From Chloroflexota bacterium (GTDB taxonomy: Bacteria > Chloroflexota > Anaerolineae > Aggregatilineales > UBA3940): DNA of 64,000 nucleotides. The stretch is taken from NCBI GenBank assembly GCA_010092885.1, contig JAADYX010000381.1:1-64000 (forward strand), written 5' to 3'. The position numbers and the translations under genes are program-made. Positions within the stretch are counted from its first letter, which is position 1, and each line of letters opens with the position of its first letter. Positions 31,047 through 42,368 of the stretch are shown here, piece after piece. A model generated the notes under the pieces. The model worked only from the letters and a program-made list of their open reading frames with translations, had not been told where the DNA came from and did not search any database.

Positions 31047-31730
31047 GTGACACAGGTCTTGATTAAGGGACTGCGAGAAGGCCTGCTGGTAACGGTCAAC
31101 GGATCGGATACCTGGCAGGAAATTGAGGCCGCGCTTGTGGCGCACATCGAAAAACAGGGCGATTTTTTCCGTGGCGCACAGATCGCCCTCCAGGTAGGAG
31201 ACCACATCTTGGATAGAGAAGACATCCGTAAACTCCAGGAAAAGCTGGCCAAACATGATGTGCGGCTCTCAGCCCTGCTGGGGACATCACCCGACACCAT
31301 CCGCGCCGCCCGGCGCATGGAACTCGATACCGATATGCCTGAGACCGGTGAGCAGCCTCTCACCGAAGACGGCGAACTGCCCCCCATTGACAACAACGAA
31401 TATGGCAGCAGCGGCGTTCTGGTGAAGGGCACGCTGCGCTCCGGTAAGGTGATCAGGCATATGGGCCATGTGGTGGTCATCGGGGATGTGAACCCCGGAT
31501 CGCAGATCATCGCGGGCGGTGATGTACTGGTCTGGGGTAAACTCCGAGGGACTGTACATGCAGGCGCACAGGGTGATACAGAGGCAATGGTCTGTGCACT
31601 GGACATGCGCCCGACTCAGCTGCGCATCGCGAACTTTGTGGCAATCGGCCAGAATGACCGCAATGCCAGACCAAGCCCTGAGATCGCCTTCGTACGTGAC
31701 GACCAGATCGTTGCTGAAGAGTGGGGCTAA
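31047..31730 (+). CDS. minC: Septum site-determining protein MinC
   Basis: VLVKGTLRSGKVIRHMGHVVVIGDVNPGSQIIAGGDVLVWGKLRGTVHAGAQGD. Confidence 0.93.
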   Translation: MTQVLIKGLREGLLVTVNGSDTWQEIEAALVAHIEKQGDFFRGAQIALQVGDHILDREDIRKLQEKLAKHDVRLSALLGTSPDTIRAARRMELDTDMPETGEQPLTEDGELPPIDNNEYGSSGVLVKGTLRSGKVIRHMGHVVVIGDVNPGSQIIAGGDVLVWGKLRGTVHAGAQGDTEAMVCALDMRPTQLRIANFVAIGQNDRNARPSPEIAFVRDDQIVAEEWG

Positions 31731-31745
31731 CCAAGGGAGACAGAC

Positions 31746-32597
31746 ATGACCGCTAAAGTTATCACCGTCACATCGGGTAAAGGTGGCGTTGGCAAAACGA
31801 CGACAACAGCCAACCTGGGCGTCGCATTGGCGTCACTCGGCAAGAAAGTTGCATGTGTGGATGCTGACATCGGCCTGCGCAATCTGGACGTTGTCATGGG
31901 GCTTGAGAACCGCATTGTCTACGATCTGGTTGACGTGGTGGAAGGCCGGGCCAAGCTGCGCCAGGCGATGATCAAAGACAAGCGGCTGAAAGAGGATCTC
32001 TACCTCATACCGGCTGCCCAGACCCGCGACAAGACAGCGGTGAGCCCCAGTGATATGGTGCGGCTGGTTGACGAACTCAAACCGCTCGTTGACTATGTCA
32101 TCGTCGATTCCCCAGCAGGAATTGAGCGCGGTTTTCGCAATGCGCTGGCCCCGGCTGATATCGTCATTGTAGTCACCAATCCGGAGGTTTCCTCTGTGCG
32201 TGATGCCGACCGCATCGTCGGTTTGATCGAGACTGAGAACAAGGGACCGGGCCAGCTGATTGTAAACCGCGTGAAGCGGGATATGGTCAAGCGAGGCGAT
32301 ATGCTTACACCGGAAGATATCATCGATTTCCTCGCTATCAAGCTGATCGGTTTGGTTCCGGAGGACGAACGCATCCTGATCTCCAGCAACCAGGGTACAC
32401 CTGCCGCTATGAACCCGGGAGAGTCAAAGGCCGGTCAGGCGTTTATTAATATCGCCAAGCGGTTGACGGGTGAAGAAGTGCCTTTCATGGAGATGGAAGA
32501 AGAAGAGGGCTTCATGCAGAAGGTGCTCAAATCGCTGGGATTTGGTGGCGGCAATGGCAAGTCCAAGAGCGAGAAGCCCGCACGCGCGGCCAAATAG
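31746..32597 (+). CDS. minD: Septum site-determining protein MinD
   Basis: TSGKGGVGKTTTTANLG, DADIGLRNLDVVMGLENR; C-terminal amphipathic stretch EEGFMQKVLKSLGFG. Confidence 0.96.
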   Translation: MTAKVITVTSGKGGVGKTTTTANLGVALASLGKKVACVDADIGLRNLDVVMGLENRIVYDLVDVVEGRAKLRQAMIKDKRLKEDLYLIPAAQTRDKTAVSPSDMVRLVDELKPLVDYVIVDSPAGIERGFRNALAPADIVIVVTNPEVSSVRDADRIVGLIETENKGPGQLIVNRVKRDMVKRGDMLTPEDIIDFLAIKLIGLVPEDERILISSNQGTPAAMNPGESKAGQAFINIAKRLTGEEVPFMEMEEEEGFMQKVLKSLGFGGGNGKSKSEKPARAAK

Positions 32598-32610
32598 GGG
32601 GACAAAACGT

Positions 32611-32898
32611 ATGGCAAACTGGCTGGAACGCCTGTTCGGCGGACGCAAACAAGCAAGTGGCTCTGTGGCCAAAGAGCGGCTGCAGCTGCTGCTGGTCCAT
32701 GATCGCAGCGACCTCACACCACAGCAGGTCGCAGCGATGAAAGATGAAATCCTGGAAGTGATCGCCCGCTATGTGGAGTTCGATGCGGAAAATGTATCCA
32801 TTGACTTGACCAGCCATGATCGCGAGAGTGTGCTCATGGCCGAGATCCCGATTGTGCCGGCGGCACGCCAGAATCAGACAGCACCCTCTGACGCGTAG
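32611..32898 (+). CDS. minE: Cell division topological specificity factor MinE
   Basis: WLERLFGGRKQASGSVAKERLQLLLVHDRSDLTPQQVAAMKDEILEVIARYV. Start corrected from the longer ORF at 32470. Confidence 0.93.
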   Translation: MANWLERLFGGRKQASGSVAKERLQLLLVHDRSDLTPQQVAAMKDEILEVIARYVEFDAENVSIDLTSHDRESVLMAEIPIVPAARQNQTAPSDA

Positions 32899-32901
32899 GG
32901 G

Positions 32902-33675
32902 TCAAGTCAGGATCACATCACCCGCCCGTGATTGGACCGCGATGCTGATCTGAGCGGGTGCCGATTCGAATTCTGGCGTAACGTATTCGCTGATGCCATA
33001 GGGCTGAAGCCGGTCATTCTCTACCTTCACGGTTACAAGGCCTGTCCGGGGTACCTTTATGTGAACCCCTACCTCTGGCGGGATGCGTATCTCAACCTCA
33101 CCAATACCGGTGTATAACGCCATATCAACCACGCCGCGCCGCGGGCAGGCAACCGTCATGCGACCGGCACCTGTGCTGGCAACGATCCGGTCAAGGCGTA
33201 GATCGGTCAGGTTCAGGACCATATCGCCGGTTGAACTGTGCACGTCAACCGTCCACAGTACGTTGCCCGCCAGCCCGGTCTGCCATTGAGCGATGCTCGG
33301 CGGAATCACCCGCTGCTTGAGCCTGAGCGAGGCGACCCCATCCTTCGACTCGAAAAACGGCCTGCCGGATGAACGCAGCATCGCGATACGGTCGTTGGGG
33401 CAGTCACCGACGGCCATGCTGCTCCAGCCAGACCGCGCTTGGAAGTGCCCGCGCACGACCTGACCGCGTGCCGTAAACAGCCGAGGGGAGCGGCCCAACA
33501 CGAGATCGCCATGGATGAGGACGCTCAGCGCAATGGCGACAATGCCCCCACCGATCACCGGGCCGGGCAGCAACCCCGTACCTGTTGCCGCAAAAATCAG
33601 CCCGGCGATGATAGCAAGCAAACCCGGCCAAAACAGAACGAGTGCAACACGGCGGCTAAAGGTGCTCATAAGCAT
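32902..33675 (-). CDS. Membrane protein with LiaF/toast-rack-like beta-rich C-terminus
   Basis: Two N-terminal TM segments, then a repetitive beta region (VASTGAGRMTVACPRRGVVDMALYTGIGEVEIRIP). Confidence 0.65.
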   Translation of the reverse strand: MLMSTFSRRVALVLFWPGLLAIIAGLIFAATGTGLLPGPVIGGGIVAIALSVLIHGDLVLGRSPRLFTARGQVVRGHFQARSGWSSMAVGDCPNDRIAMLRSSGRPFFESKDGVASLRLKQRVIPPSIAQWQTGLAGNVLWTVDVHSSTGDMVLNLTDLRLDRIVASTGAGRMTVACPRRGVVDMALYTGIGEVEIRIPPEVGVHIKVPRTGLVTVKVENDRLQPYGISEYVTPEFESAPAQISIAVQSRAGDVILT

Positions 33676-33726: not shown

Positions 33727-34407
33727 TTACCCGCCGGGGTCCACAGTGGCGTCCGGGTCCGGGGCGGGTTGTACGTAGGGCGGCTGTGCGGTCCAATCGA
33801 TGATAGTGCTGATTGTGAGCGCGTCCACGATATAGATCGCAGGATCGTCTGGCACCTGTACGTAGTAACCTGCCCCGGTCGGAGTCCGGCTGCCGACTTG
33901 CAGCGTGTAGGTCGGGCCGAAATCCGTGACGAATTCAATCGTGTGGAGTGGGTCATCGAGCCCATAGTCGCCCACGGCTCCCTCGATATCAGTTAGCCGG
34001 CGGGTCGGGGTGAGGCTGGGTAGACCGGCCACGGCTCCCTGTATGGCATCCGTATCCGCACCAAGGCCGGTATCAGTATCCTCCGGCGCTTCGGCGACGC
34101 GCCAACGCAGCGTAAGCGGATTGGCGGGTGTATCTTCCTCTGTGTCCATTCCCTCCTCGATAGCACTCACTTGTTCAACGGTGACGCTTTCGCCCTGGCG
34201 GTTGTCGGTTACAGTCAGGGCTGTGACCACAGCCAACGTCTGTGAGGCTTCAGGATAGAGCGGGTCCAACACCTCGATAGTTGGTGTGGGCTCGGCATCC
34301 GTGGTGTCCTCACGGTTGCCGAGCGCCTGTGCGCCAAGGAACAAGGCCAGCGCGATGACAAGAACAATCCCGATGGCTATTAGCCGCTGTTGGGTTTGGC
34401 GCTGCAT
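33727..34407 (-). CDS. DUF4340-like membrane-anchored protein of GldAFG-type ABC system
   Basis: N-terminal TM; LRWRVAEAPEDTDT...YGLDDPLHTIEFVTDFGPTYTLQVGSRTPTGAGYYVQVPDDPAIYIVD; operonic. Confidence 0.82.
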   Translation of the reverse strand: MQRQTQQRLIAIGIVLVIALALFLGAQALGNREDTTDAEPTPTIEVLDPLYPEASQTLAVVTALTVTDNRQGESVTVEQVSAIEEGMDTEEDTPANPLTLRWRVAEAPEDTDTGLGADTDAIQGAVAGLPSLTPTRRLTDIEGAVGDYGLDDPLHTIEFVTDFGPTYTLQVGSRTPTGAGYYVQVPDDPAIYIVDALTISTIIDWTAQPPYVQPAPDPDATVDPGG

Positions 34408-34422: not shown

Positions 34423-36933
34423 TTAGCGACGGCGGCGGCGGGCAAACCACACACCCGCACCCACGAGAAGCATCACACCGGGCAGCAGACAGGTCATCGC
34501 GATGCTGAGTACGTTCACACCAATCGGAGGCAGTGGCTCTTCGATGGTGTTCTGCCCGAAGTCATCGGTCGGGATATCAAGCGCATTTTCGCCCTCTGTC
34601 AACCAGTTGGCAGCGTTGATAACCAGCTCCGCGTTGTTGAAGTTGGCACGGTTCTGCAGAAATGTGTTTGAAGCGAAGTCCGCATCGCCGAATATCACAG
34701 CGCGGTAGTTCTCCTCGATGTTTTCTACGCTGACAGCCACTGTCACCGGCCCGGGGATATCCTCGCCAGGGTTGAATTCCACCCCACCCCCGCTGACCGT
34801 CGGGTCGCTGGTTTCACCCCAGGAAAGCGGTTGGCCGGTATTCCCGGTGCCCGCCGTTTCGATCAGACTGACCTGAACGACATTCTCTGATGGTGCGTCA
34901 AGCAGCATGCTCTGAGCGGTGAACATCACAGGCCGTGTGCCGCCATCATCAAGTGTTTCCACAATGGGCGAGTTGCCGAAGTTGTTGAGAACTGGTGTGG
35001 CGACATCCCCCACCAGACCTTCAGAAGTCACATCAATGACCAGGTCGTTGTTCAGCTGAACGCCCATCTCTTCGATCAGGTACTCACGCAGCACATCAAC
35101 CGATGTATGTGGGGCTTCGATTAACCCGATCTGCTCTTCGGCTTCGAGGCTCCACAAGCGGATGTTGCCATCAGCACTCACACTGACCAGCGTATCATCG
35201 TCCGGACCGAGGGAGGCATCCCACACTGTGTTTTCGTGGCGCTCGAATGAGACATCCTCGCCAACCCGGATGGTGGCGTCAAACAGCGCATAGATGGCCT
35301 GCCCCTCTTCAGTCACTGCGATGCTGGTGATGCCTGTTTCCTCAAAGAGCGTGGTTGTTGTCGCTTCGCCACTTGAAACATCGTACGTGCCCTGCGTGCC
35401 ATCTACTGCTACGGTGAGTATCTCTGAGCCGTCGGGTGTGTAGGCTAGCGAAAAGGCAACATCGCCGTGCACACGGGCGTTGTCAATCTGTTCGCCAGAG
35501 GCCGCATCCCACAGGTAGAGCAGCCCCTCGACGGAGCCAGTAGCGGATTGGCGCCCAGCCACGACAGCGATGCTTTCGCTGTCGGGTGAGAAGGCAACAT
35601 CAAACATCTGAGCGGGCACGGCGATCGGCGAGAAGCTGGCTTCCTCGTAGGTGTCGGTGTTCCACACACGGATGATCTGGTCACCGGCGGCACTGGCCAA
35701 CAGCGCCCCATCGGGTGAATAGTCGATGCCACCCACATCAGATTGGTGGCCTTCCAGCACAGTCAGTTCTTCACCTTCGGTATCCCAGATACGTACTGTG
35801 CCGTCAAGGCTAAGCGTGGCGATATCACCGGTCGAAGACACACTGACATCGACTACGGCACCGCCATGGCCGCGCAGAATGGCGATTTCATCACGTGACC
35901 CCGCATCCCAGACACGCGCTGTGCCGTCCGAACCGGCAGTTACGAAGAAGTCGCCGCTGGGAGCAAAGTCGACACCGAGCACACCGGAGCCCAGCGCACC
36001 ACCACTCACCAGGCCAGCCTCGGCGAAGACCATCAGAGCCCCCCCACCGGTCAGATAGGCGTCGAGAATCTCTATTTCACGCGGGGCAAACTGCGCTTCC
36101 GGGCCTGCGATGATCAGCATATCGGCATCGTCGGGGATCGCACCATCCTCAAGCTGAAGCAGGTTCAGCGTTTCGACCTCAAAGCCAAAACGCCCGAGCT
36201 CGTTGACGATCTCCGAGTAGGCCTCGCCTTCAAATCCGCTGATATCACGCTCGCCATGGCCAGTGACCGCGTACGCTTTGCGCTCCTCACCGATCAGGAC
36301 TTGGAGGAGGGCATTGCTTATCGAGCGTTCGCTGGCGCCCGTGGCTTCCGCGGTGCGGTCGCCTTGGGTGAGCACGATCACGTTTGTGCCGGTTACTCCG
36401 AACTGTTGAGCGAGCAGCGGCTCACGATCAGGATCAACAAAACGGAAAGTGAAATTGCCTTCGGCTTCGCGTTCATAGGCGCGCAGCCACAGATCGGCCT
36501 CTTCACGTGCGGCAGGCGATTCGCCATAAAAGGCAATGGCCTCAACAGGCTCCTCTAACCGGTCAAGGAGTTCTTGGGAAGACTCCGAGAGCCGGTACCG
36601 GCTTCCTTCAGTAGCGTCAACCGGGGCGAAGTTCGCCTGGCTGATGAGCACGTTCAGGCCGATCACCGCGGCGATCGCCACGGCACTCAGCAGGATAGAG
36701 GTGAGTGTGTACTGTCCGGCGCGCCCCGTTACCGATTCAACCAGAGCCTCAGGATCGAGGGCGATAAAGCCGGCCAGCGCAAGCACCACGACGCCAAGCG
36801 CTACGTAGCTGGTTGTGGTGAACCGGTTGCCAGGGGTCACGATAAACGCGATGGCAAAGACGATCAGCGCGACTACGCCCAAACCGAGCAGAATATAGCG
36901 CGCTGTGTTGCGGTCGATGCGGATGTCATTCAT
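34423..36933 (-). CDS. GldG-like ABC transporter auxiliary protein with an internal seven-blade WD40 propeller
   Basis: GldG-type flanks (YRLSESSQELLDRLEEPVEAIAFYGES...; HTSVDVLREYLIEEMGVQLNNDLVIDV...) with WD40 repeats GSDGTARVWDA / LDGTVRIWDT / DQIIRVWNT / GLLYLWDA etc. between them. Confidence 0.88.
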   Translation of the reverse strand: MNDIRIDRNTARYILLGLGVVALIVFAIAFIVTPGNRFTTTSYVALGVVVLALAGFIALDPEALVESVTGRAGQYTLTSILLSAVAIAAVIGLNVLISQANFAPVDATEGSRYRLSESSQELLDRLEEPVEAIAFYGESPAAREEADLWLRAYEREAEGNFTFRFVDPDREPLLAQQFGVTGTNVIVLTQGDRTAEATGASERSISNALLQVLIGEERKAYAVTGHGERDISGFEGEAYSEIVNELGRFGFEVETLNLLQLEDGAIPDDADMLIIAGPEAQFAPREIEILDAYLTGGGALMVFAEAGLVSGGALGSGVLGVDFAPSGDFFVTAGSDGTARVWDAGSRDEIAILRGHGGAVVDVSVSSTGDIATLSLDGTVRIWDTEGEELTVLEGHQSDVGGIDYSPDGALLASAAGDQIIRVWNTDTYEEASFSPIAVPAQMFDVAFSPDSESIAVVAGRQSATGSVEGLLYLWDAASGEQIDNARVHGDVAFSLAYTPDGSEILTVAVDGTQGTYDVSSGEATTTTLFEETGITSIAVTEEGQAIYALFDATIRVGEDVSFERHENTVWDASLGPDDDTLVSVSADGNIRLWSLEAEEQIGLIEAPHTSVDVLREYLIEEMGVQLNNDLVIDVTSEGLVGDVATPVLNNFGNSPIVETLDDGGTRPVMFTAQSMLLDAPSENVVQVSLIETAGTGNTGQPLSWGETSDPTVSGGGVEFNPGEDIPGPVTVAVSVENIEENYRAVIFGDADFASNTFLQNRANFNNAELVINAANWLTEGENALDIPTDDFGQNTIEEPLPPIGVNVLSIAMTCLLPGVMLLVGAGVWFARRRRR

Positions 36934-37685
36934 CCGACGTATCTCCTTGAGCCAAGGATCTGAGAAGCAAGCAGCAGTGCAATGATGATCATGCCGATGA
37001 AGTACGCGATATCCACCGGGTCAATGATCGAGTTAACGATCAGGGCATCGCCATGGTCACGCAGTGACAGCGATGCGATGAAATCTGAGACATTCGGGTT
37101 GGCGACCAGCCCCGCGAAGAGATCGACAATCCACAGCACAAGGCAGGAACCAATTCCGACGAACAGTGCCACCAGCTGGTACTGCGTCAGGGACGAGGCC
37201 AGAATGCCAATCGCCATCATGGTGCCTGTGCTCAACAGGAGGCCGAGATAGCCCGCCGCAATGGCCCCGATATCTGGTGAGCCGCGCAATGCGAGCACCA
37301 CGGGGTAAAGCAGTGTGATCGCAATAAAGACAGCCACTGCCCCGAACGCGCCGAGCCATTTGCCGACGATGATCTCACCATCGCGAATGGGCGATGTAAA
37401 CAGGAGTTCGTGTGTGCCCTCGCGCAGTTCGTCGGCAACCAGCCGCATGGAAATCGCCGGCGCGAAGAACACCATCAGGAAGACCATGGTGTTAATCAGA
37501 GGGGCCATGTCAAGTGGGGCCACACCCTGGTTCCACTGCTGACCGAAGTAGAAGGAGAAAAAGGCCCCATTGATCAGCAGCCAGATGGCCCCGATGAAGT
37601 AAATCAACGGCGAACCAAACAGAAGCGAGAACTCCTGCTTGGCGATGATCCAGATCGTTCTGAGAGAGCGGCCTACGCTTTGCAT
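36930..37685 (-). CDS. ABC transporter permease (GldF-like, ABC-2 type)
   Basis: IAKQEFSLLFGSPLIYFIGAIWLLINGAFFSFYF; LVADELREGTHELLFTSPIRDGEIIVGKWLG. Confidence 0.9.
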   Translation of the reverse strand: MQSVGRSLRTIWIIAKQEFSLLFGSPLIYFIGAIWLLINGAFFSFYFGQQWNQGVAPLDMAPLINTMVFLMVFFAPAISMRLVADELREGTHELLFTSPIRDGEIIVGKWLGAFGAVAVFIAITLLYPVVLALRGSPDIGAIAAGYLGLLLSTGTMMAIGILASSLTQYQLVALFVGIGSCLVLWIVDLFAGLVANPNVSDFIASLSLRDHGDALIVNSIIDPVDIAYFIGMIIIALLLASQILGSRRYVG

Positions 37686-37689
37686 TTGG

Positions 37690-38622
37690 TCACCTCGTTT
37701 CAGCATCTTCGCCGGTCAGCCGGAGGAAGACATCCTCAAGCGACGTGCCAAGCGGTTTGAGTTCAAGTAGATCCCATTCGTTGCCGACAACCGTGGTGGC
37801 CACGATGGGACGTACATCGAGATCTTGGGGATGGGCAACTTCTATCCCATCGTCCTTGACGACAGCGGTCAGCACGCCTTCAATCTGGGTGATCAGATCG
37901 GCAGCGGTTTGCAGGTCGGCGTTGCCCAACCGCAGAAAGAAGCGGCGTTCGCCTTCCAGGCGGGTGGCGAGTGCATCCGGTGTGTCTTCGGCGACGATCT
38001 GCCCTTTATGGATCATCAGGACACGGTCAGCGACTTTTTCCAGCTCAGCCAGATCGTGGCTGCTGAGGAAAACTGTGCGGTCTTCACCGATCTCGTCAAT
38101 GATGGCGCGCATCTCGGCGCGTTGGTCGGGGTCCAGGCCGATCATCGGCTCGTCAAGGATGAGCACTTCCGGATCGTGCACGATGGCTTGTGCAAGACCC
38201 ACACGCTGGCGCATACCCTTGGATATGCTGGTGATCATGCTGTTTTCCCGCTCCAGCATATTGACCTTTTCCAGCGCGATTTCGACCCGCCGCTCGCGAT
38301 CAGCCCCGGATAGACCACGCAGGCTGGCGAAGTATTCCACGTACTGCCAGACGGTCATTTCCCGGTAGAGGGGAACCGTCTCTGGCAGGTAGCCGAGCTT
38401 CTGCCGCATGTCGATCGGTTGTTCGAGCACATCATAGCCAGCGACGGTGACGGATCCTTCGTTGGGCGGCATATAGCCTGTCAGGATGCGGATGGTGGTC
38501 GTTTTGCCCGCGCCGTTGCGCCCGACAAAGCCGACAACTTCTCCCACATCAGCAAAGAAGGAGATCCGGTCGATGGCTTTGTAGTTGCCGTAGTACTTGG
38601 TTAAGCCTTCAACCTGTATCAT
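37690..38622 (-). CDS. ABC transporter ATP-binding protein (GldA-like)
   Basis: GRNGAGKTTTIRILTGYMPPNEG, SKGMRQRVGLAQA, VLILDEPMIGLDP. Confidence 0.94.
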   Translation of the reverse strand: MIQVEGLTKYYGNYKAIDRISFFADVGEVVGFVGRNGAGKTTTIRILTGYMPPNEGSVTVAGYDVLEQPIDMRQKLGYLPETVPLYREMTVWQYVEYFASLRGLSGADRERRVEIALEKVNMLERENSMITSISKGMRQRVGLAQAIVHDPEVLILDEPMIGLDPDQRAEMRAIIDEIGEDRTVFLSSHDLAELEKVADRVLMIHKGQIVAEDTPDALATRLEGERRFFLRLGNADLQTAADLITQIEGVLTAVVKDDGIEVAHPQDLDVRPIVATTVVGNEWDLLELKPLGTSLEDVFLRLTGEDAETR

Positions 38623-39608: not shown

Positions 39609-40682
39609 TCAGGGGACTGCATCTTCCGGCTCGCGCACGAAGAAGGGAAAATCGTAGATCGAAGCAGGCAGTGCCTCATCCAATGTATAGGAAAAGACAT
39701 CTGACCATTGTGGTGTGGCACTGTCAATCAGATCATAGGCGTATTCGGTGATGCCTGTGCCAGCGTCAACATAGGTCGAGAATTCAGCGGGCTCGATCAC
39801 GATGTAGTGCGGACTGCCCATCCAGATGACTTCACCCCAGCCAAATGCACCATACACGAAGAGCTCGTTATTAGGGTTAGAGTCCCAGTGATAGGCGACT
39901 TTGCGCTCAACATAGACCTCCGAACTCACAGGATCGTACTCGCGGATCGCGATGCGGTACGCGCCATTGGTGGAGTCAAATTCGTAAGGCTGCCATGTGA
40001 GGGTGAAGTCCCCATCGTAGTTGAATTTGTTATACAGACCCAGCATCAGATAGTAGCCCGGGACAACGCCGAGATCCCAGTACGCCGGGTCGTTCTCCAG
40101 AGCGAACGGTGTCTGGAACTGCACGGTGGTCGGTTCCTTTTCCGGTGGGATATTGACCGGCATGTTGACTGTATCAACGATGTGGATCGTACCGTTGGAC
40201 AGTTCGATATCGGCATCAAGGACGATGGCTCCATGTACGAACAGTTCACCATACAGGTCCTGCAGATAGATGTCCTGGTTATTCAGTTCACTTTCAATGG
40301 TGGTTAGGCCGTTGAGGTCAGATGCATCATACTCGCCAACCACAATGTGAAACCGGGTGAAGTACTCCAATGTGGCATAGCCGTTGGCCGCATCGTCAAA
40401 TATGTCGAAGTCCTCGCCAAACGCCGCGTTGAGTGTATCCCAGGCGTTGTTGTCCGGGACGAAGACCGTAAACGGACCACTTGTGTCACTGTCCAGATTG
40501 TATGTGTCATCGAGATCGGTCAGGCCGAGAGCCAGTTCCATCCTGGAGAGGGTAGGATCGTCGGAAATATAGTCCATGATAGTCTGGCTGGTTTGCGCCT
40601 GCACAACGGCTGCGTCTACCGCAGCAGCCAACAAAGCGGCCACAGCCAGCACCAAACTCACAGCGAGGTGTTTAAATGTCAT
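39609..40682 (-). CDS. Secreted FAS1 (fasciclin) domain protein
   Basis: Signal peptide; SGPFTVFVPDNNAWDTLNAAFGEDF...NGTIHIVDTVNMP. Confidence 0.88.
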   Translation of the reverse strand: MTFKHLAVSLVLAVAALLAAAVDAAVVQAQTSQTIMDYISDDPTLSRMELALGLTDLDDTYNLDSDTSGPFTVFVPDNNAWDTLNAAFGEDFDIFDDAANGYATLEYFTRFHIVVGEYDASDLNGLTTIESELNNQDIYLQDLYGELFVHGAIVLDADIELSNGTIHIVDTVNMPVNIPPEKEPTTVQFQTPFALENDPAYWDLGVVPGYYLMLGLYNKFNYDGDFTLTWQPYEFDSTNGAYRIAIREYDPVSSEVYVERKVAYHWDSNPNNELFVYGAFGWGEVIWMGSPHYIVIEPAEFSTYVDAGTGITEYAYDLIDSATPQWSDVFSYTLDEALPASIYDFPFFVREPEDAVP

Positions 40683-40859
40683 AGATCACCTCCGGATGAT
40701 CGCAGATTCATGGCTATTGTACAGGCAGCAGACTGTAGGCGTCAATGGCACTTACTTACCGGCCCGCATGTGCTTTGTGGCACTTGTCCGCACCGAATGC
40801 TACGATCCATCAGATATATGATCCCGTACATGATAAAGTGACTTATCCATCAGGTGCCC

Positions 40860-42368
40860 ATGCAGATCAAACGCGATCCTCCCGGTTCGGGGAGGCTTAC
40901 TTTCCGCAGACGACGTAAACGCTTCCCCATCCTGCCTGTGCTGCTCTATGTCGGCGTGTTGGCGGCAGCGGGTGTTGTCTGGCTGCAGCGCGACTCACTG
41001 CAGCCGCAGGTGGTGGCTGCGTTTGGACCAACGCCAACACCCACACCTTCTATCGTTGAATTGACCACACAGGGCGAGATCGCCTTCTATGAGGGACGTT
41101 TGGCTGTGGCGGAAACGTACTACCGGCAGGCTGTCGAGGTTGACCCCAACAACGTTGATGCGTTGTTTTGGCTTTCCCATGTGCTCACGTTGGAATACAT
41201 CCAGAGCCGTGACATTGAAAAACTTGAGGAAGCGCTCGCCGTAGCGGAGCAGGCGATCACAGTTGATCCGGAGGATCCACAAGGCTATGCAGCGCGCTCA
41301 AGGGCATTGAACTGGCTGGGTGACTACAGCGCATCGGCGAATGCAGCGAGCAAGGCGCTTGAAATCGATCCGAACTATGCCCTGGGCAGGGCCTATCTGG
41401 CTGAGGCCTATGTGGATTTAGGCCGGCTGCGCCAGGCTCTGACTGAGGCCGAGCGCGCCGTGGAGCTTGACCCATACAGTGTGGAGGCACGACGCAACTA
41501 CGCCTGGGTGTTGGCCCACTACGGCAGCTACAACAACGCGATCATCCAATACGAGCAGGCGCTGCGCATCCAGCCAAACCGCCCCGATTTGATGTATGAA
41601 CTCGCGTTGAACTACCGTTGGTCTGGCGACTATGACTCGGCCATCGCGACGTTTGAGGAGATCCTACTCCTCAGCCCGGACAATCCGGTGACCTTCTATG
41701 TTGAGATCGGCAAGACCTATTTTGAGCAGCGTGAAGACGGGGCCGCTCAGGAGTTCCTCGGTGCGGCGGTGCAGTTGGTCTGCAATGAGCAGCCCGAAGG
41801 TGAAACGGGTTCCACAGAAGATCAGGAGTGTCCGCGTAACCCGGGTGTCTGGGAGCTTTCTGACAGCCAGTATGATCAGTGGCGCAGCAGCCCAGACAAT
41901 CTACCAGATAACGTCTTCATGCCCGCCTGGACCCTCCTGGGGCAGGTGTATTACACACGGCGAAACTTCGAAGACGCGGTTGATATCTTTGAAGAGGCCA
42001 TTGCCTATGGTGAAGAAAATGACGTCGAGGTGCCGATCGAGACCTACTATCTGACCGCGCTGGCCTACTACTACCTCAATGAGTGTGACCGCGGTGTGCC
42101 GTTAGCGGAGTATGCATTCAACCGGCTTCAGGACGACATTGCCTCCAGCAATGAACCGCCCGATGCCAGCACGCTGACCGTACAGAACAACATTCTGAGC
42201 GTGTTCGTATTGTGCCGTGACTTCGCGGGCGACCCCTATACCTCAACCGCTTCTGGCTTTACCAATGGCTTCCCGGAAGGCTTCACCGAACCGGATGTGG
42301 TGATCCGCCGCAGCGATGGCTCTGTGGTTGAAGAGAACGAAGAAGAGATGATGGATGATGAGGAGTAG
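40860..42368 (+). CDS. Membrane-anchored TPR protein (1)
   Basis: TM followed by TPR repeats (AETYYRQAVEVDPNNVDALFWLSHVL; ASNAASKALEIDPNYALGRAYLAEAYVDLGR). Confidence 0.85.
   Translation: MQIKRDPPGSGRLTFRRRRKRFPILPVLLYVGVLAAAGVVWLQRDSLQPQVVAAFGPTPTPTPSIVELTTQGEIAFYEGRLAVAETYYRQAVEVDPNNVDALFWLSHVLTLEYIQSRDIEKLEEALAVAEQAITVDPEDPQGYAARSRALNWLGDYSASANAASKALEIDPNYALGRAYLAEAYVDLGRLRQALTEAERAVELDPYSVEARRNYAWVLAHYGSYNNAIIQYEQALRIQPNRPDLMYELALNYRWSGDYDSAIATFEEILLLSPDNPVTFYVEIGKTYFEQREDGAAQEFLGAAVQLVCNEQPEGETGSTEDQECPRNPGVWELSDSQYDQWRSSPDNLPDNVFMPAWTLLGQVYYTRRNFEDAVDIFEEAIAYGEENDVEVPIETYYLTALAYYYLNECDRGVPLAEYAFNRLQDDIASSNEPPDASTLTVQNNILSVFVLCRDFAGDPYTSTASGFTNGFPEGFTEPDVVIRRSDGSVVEENEEEMMDDEE

Follow-up and report, generated by a model that had tools for sequence, protein, structure and literature searches.

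The locus described here raises the question of whether the core domain of a single GldG-like protein can accommodate an entire WD40 propeller and, if so, how that arrangement arose and what the propeller might do. Many bacteria have ABC systems of the GldAFG-like type, whose role outside the gliding Bacteroidota is unsettled. The gene lies in a stretch of 64,000 nucleotides from a Chloroflexota bacterium (contig JAADYX010000381.1, hereafter "the window").

The gene is an intact open reading frame on the minus strand (34423-36933; ORF, Pfam and AlphaFold2), and it encodes one GldG/ABC_transp_aux protein of 836 residues with a WD40 propeller nested in the core domain. All features of this protein are thus read from the minus strand. 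Three N-terminal transmembrane helices (residues 8-32, 40-59 and 71-99; 36637-36912), recognized from the AlphaFold2 helices and the sequence, are followed by a DUF7088 domain (residues 110-194; 36352-36606; Pfam and profile), which is glutaredoxin-like by profile, is devoid of cysteines, and scores 45.2 bits against a Pfam cut-off of 27.8. The first part of the ABC_transp_aux (PF09822) or GIFT-like domain (residues 219-306; 36016-36279; Pfam and profile) contains a TGHGE motif and reaches 59.6 bits (cut-off 34.7). A glycine-rich linker of lower local confidence (residues 307-317; 35983-36015; alignment and AlphaFold2) leads into the seven-blade propeller (residues 318-605; 35119-35982; Pfam, AlphaFold2 and Foldseek). 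The second part of the ABC_transp_aux domain (residues 614-760; 34654-35094; alignment, profile and AlphaFold2) comes next, and a C-terminal transmembrane helix (residues 803-835; 34429-34527; AlphaFold2 and sequence) ends in an arginine-rich tail. With PF09822 and DUF7088 both above their Pfam cut-offs, the protein is GldG-like in its core.

The propeller itself is matched by the Pfam WD40 model with an E-value of 5e-35 (118.9 bits; cut-off 27), and numerous other propeller models match within residues 316-613. Homolog-based profiles, whose residue numbers are given after subtraction of a 29-residue upstream frame extension, place the N-terminal GldG part up to residue 306, the propeller at 316-610, and the C-terminal GldG part from 612; the last profile was built from members of the window's family. 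Pfam, these profiles and AlphaFold2 therefore agree on what the initial annotation had proposed, i.e. one GldG protein with a complete nested propeller. The limits that it gave for the insertion (nucleotides 35119-36015) correspond exactly to residues 307-605, and the blade ends that it had read (VWDA, IWDT, VWNT, LWDA, TYDV, one degenerate, and LWSL) are all present.

A structure prediction bears on whether these repeats close. The AlphaFold2 model of the 836-residue protein, calculated from an alignment of 52 natural sequences, has a mean pLDDT of 89.4 and a pTM of 0.77. Residues 318-605 form 28 strands in seven groups of four, with local pLDDT mostly between 90 and 98; blade 3 has a short d strand. 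Both GldG halves are also modelled confidently (mostly above 90). A Foldseek search of the Protein Data Bank with the model returned solved seven-blade propellers, the best being 7bie_A with a TM-score of 0.91 over the target; another is PkwA (5yzv), at 0.86-0.88. The WD40 repeats are thus predicted to close into a complete seven-blade propeller, as had been anticipated from the sequence. The linkers are modelled at a pLDDT of about 77-79, and the orientation of the propeller relative to the core is uncertain. Judged by the strand order, both ends should exit on the propeller face that carries the d-a and b-c loops, which would then point to the core.

Alignment with insertion-free relatives locates the insertion to a single loop. 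In canonical proteins, a loop of ~5-10 residues connects a strand ending in GGxLLxLxDP to the helix of an LxxxGxxxxxDxIxD segment. Judged against 43-44 canonical relatives, this loop is exactly where the propeller lies in the window protein and its family. The GldG fold restarts directly after the propeller, and the two halves align as one domain with the insertion-free proteins, in keeping with the earlier view that they form a single domain. The ABC_transp_aux and DUF7088 models match all 52 sequences; WD40 matches only eight, all of which belong to the window's family.

Within that family, the gene was found in eight of the nine genomes searched, and the propeller is at the same site in all eight. 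One family genome has a contig that ends inside the propeller, and another has one that ends just after it. The seven carriers besides the source genome are MAGs from several sequencing projects, deposited as "Anaerolineae bacterium" or "Chloroflexi bacterium"; their proteins are 40-50% identical to the window protein and share its architecture, a recurrence far beyond chance. The notion that a WD40 gene was joined in silico to a GldG gene might be entertained because the source genome is fragmented (431 contigs). However, the same junctions recur in eight genomes from several projects, and these independent assemblies refute such an artefact, to which we assign a negligible probability.

Outside the family, no propeller insertion occurs among the matches listed from overlapping samples of the order (154 genomes), class (396) and phylum (400); because ~150 matches were listed for each of the order and class searches and long frames were fetched in part, rare further cases could be missed. 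None was found in ~70 named relatives from other phyla. The remaining listed matches from the order, class and phylum are frames of canonical size, or longer ones without the insertion. Long frames of ~670-1010 residues in other families of the order, class and phylum had been considered as candidate insertions, and profiles of both GldG parts and of the propeller were run on 20 of them. None of the 20 contains a propeller; where both GldG parts were found, they are at most ~20 residues apart, and the extra length lies upstream. Frames of ~970-1014 residues (in five genomes and others) align with the query in its DUF7088 part only, which suggests that other Anaerolineae families have a larger protein of different architecture. 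Frames of ~1090 residues from Latescibacterota and Gemmatimonadota, also candidates, are actually tandem repeats; nine such proteins, from these two phyla and one unclassified bacterium, have two GldG units per chain. The architecture is accordingly confined to one family among the matches listed and is not widespread across GldG proteins in these searches.

A tree of the GldG cores, built with the propeller left out, places all carriers in one clade (support 100/100) that is sister (95/81) to propeller-free GldGs of the same order. One acquisition is therefore likely, and its simplest reading is a single gain in the ancestor of the window's family.

The gene cluster conforms to the GldAFG pattern. 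The GldF-like ABC-2 permease (36930-37706, minus strand; Pfam and NCBIfam) has a stop that overlaps the GldG start, and the GldA-like ATPase (37690-38622, minus strand; Pfam and NCBIfam) has a stop that overlaps the GldF start. Next in the cluster are a DUF4340 protein with an N-terminal hydrophobic segment (33727-34407, minus strand; Pfam) and a family-syntenic membrane protein with a weakly LiaF-like C-terminus that falls below the cut-off (32902-33675, minus strand). The GldA-like, GldF-like and DUF4340 neighbours named in the initial annotation are thus present, and the order GldA-GldF-GldG-DUF4340-LiaF-like is kept in the family wherever contigs are long enough. A DUF4340 domain has been reported to be essential in Verrucomicrobium spinosum. 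The cluster stands tail to tail with minC-minD-minE (31047-32898), an adjacency likewise kept family-wide where contigs are long enough. Near it, a Fasciclin-domain protein is encoded on the minus strand at 39609-40682, and a 504-residue TPR protein upstream at 40854-42368; three loci (L045, L046 and L047) have two tandem homologs of this TPR protein, divergent beside gldA.

The propeller-bearing GldG is the sole ABC_transp_aux gene found in the source genome; thus, it replaces an ordinary GldG. The curated models lend no support to a link with gliding: GldG scores 52.4 bits against TIGR03521, under the NCBIfam cut-off of 389.85, and so is not the gliding GldG equivalog, and the GldA-like and GldF-like proteins likewise fall below the curated cut-offs of their gliding equivalogs. 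A GldK model matches the source genome only below its cut-off, and a search for SprA gave zero matches there and zero in control genomes as well. In a defence-system library, GldA has matches of the ATPase type only, and GldG and GldF have none.

Where, then, would the propeller reside? The topology (four helices at 8-32, 40-59, 71-99 and 803-835, with five arginines at the end of the fourth) and a cysteine-free ectodomain (zero cysteines in each of eight rows of the alignment) suggest that the core and the propeller are extracytoplasmic. Other WD40 proteins of the source genome have some cysteines, which makes for a weak comparison. The extracytoplasmic docking platform that had been envisaged earlier is thus plausible: its location is backed by topology and the lack of cysteines, but docking itself is inferred.

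We consider it fairly probable that this is a GldAFG-type ABC system whose nested extracytoplasmic propeller, gained once, docks a partner. GldG would be a subunit of a GldA-GldF-GldG(-DUF4340) type ABC-2 system, held in the membrane by three helices at its N-terminus and one at its C-terminus with the core outside, and the ATPase and permease would operate as they do elsewhere in systems of this type. The seven-blade propeller would have taken the place of a loop in the extracytoplasmic GIFT-like domain once, in the ancestor of one Anaerolineae family. Hanging from the GldG core, the propeller would most likely be a binding module, and we infer that it may dock onto the transporter an envelope protein or the exported substrate. 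A bolder version, which we regard as doubtful, is that the propeller is a receptor by which the ABC complex responds to or acts on a specific surface partner; the system would then have been re-purposed, in this family, into a machine that is anchored at the surface and docks or transmits force.

Conservation helps to weigh the alternatives. Among six family members, mean pairwise identity is 0.47 in the propeller, 0.47 in DUF7088, and 0.49 and 0.43 in the two core parts; within the propeller, conservation is lowest in blades 6 and 7. Because the propeller is conserved like the core (47% against 43-49%), it is probably functional, and these sequences point to constraint similar to that on the core. 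A tolerated, nearly neutral insertion would suit a site in a surface loop, yet the seven intact blades and the core-like identity in every family member with a complete gene make it a very improbable explanation. The propeller might instead be a spacer or self-association module that sets the complex's spacing or its oligomeric state and binds no other protein. Its invariant residues are structural, and a complete propeller of steady length is present in all carriers, as this would predict, but the whole of it is conserved like the core, beyond what a mere spacer would need; we judge this unlikely.

The invariants are mainly positions needed by any WD40 fold, and so no clear ligand site is evident. 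This result bears on a further possibility, namely that the propeller is a sensor for an extracellular ligand, through which it controls the ABC module, with a signal or mechanical force being transmitted rather than a substrate exported. Nesting within the core domain could let the core feel a binding event, and the propeller likely lies outside the membrane. Against this stand the want of a conserved pocket beyond the WD40 structural residues and a conserved cluster free of linked signalling genes, two-component or other, and the sensor, too, seems to us improbable. For the docking reading that we prefer, the propeller can be produced alone as bait for a partner, which may also reveal contacts with the core domain.

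Compared with the GldG/ABC_transp_aux family at large (PF09822, DUF7088; TIGR03521), the window protein shares the transmembrane layout, the DUF7088 and ABC_transp_aux core, the TGHGE motif, and the clustering with a GldA-like ATPase and a GldF-like permease; it differs in the propeller of ~300 residues that fills the loop behind the GGxLxxxxDP strand. The solved relatives of its ABC_transp_aux part by profile are GIFT domains of IFT52 (5fms, 5fmr and 8bd7), a eukaryotic ciliary protein, unlike the bacterial one described here. To our knowledge, the IFT52 GIFT domain has no propeller inside it. The acronym is expanded as GldG, intraflagellar transport (PMC10191852). A WD40 domain is known in the periplasm from PorE of the type 9 secretion system, a gliding-related machine (PMC9127263), but PorE is a string of TPR, WD40, CRD and OmpA domains; it is not a GldG, and its propeller is not nested. 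We found no paper describing a GldG with a nested propeller: literature searches for GldG with WD40 gave unrelated papers only, those for ABC_transp_aux with WD40 gave none, and public domain databases may list the combination.

Solved WD40 propellers, in the 7bie WRAP designs and the WD40 domain of PkwA (5yzv), resemble the GldG propeller in their seven four-stranded blades, in the GH and WD motifs, and in TM-scores of 0.86-0.91 over the solved domains. The GldG propeller differs from them in being nested in the loop of another domain, in having no cysteines, and probably in lying outside the cytoplasm. Further, strand order indicates that its blades are seemingly complete in sequence order, so that the ends swap no strand. 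The locus thus shows clearly, and in a way that can be dated, how one domain can take up an entire propeller in one of its loops: both components are known, and the nesting of the propeller in GldG is the new part.
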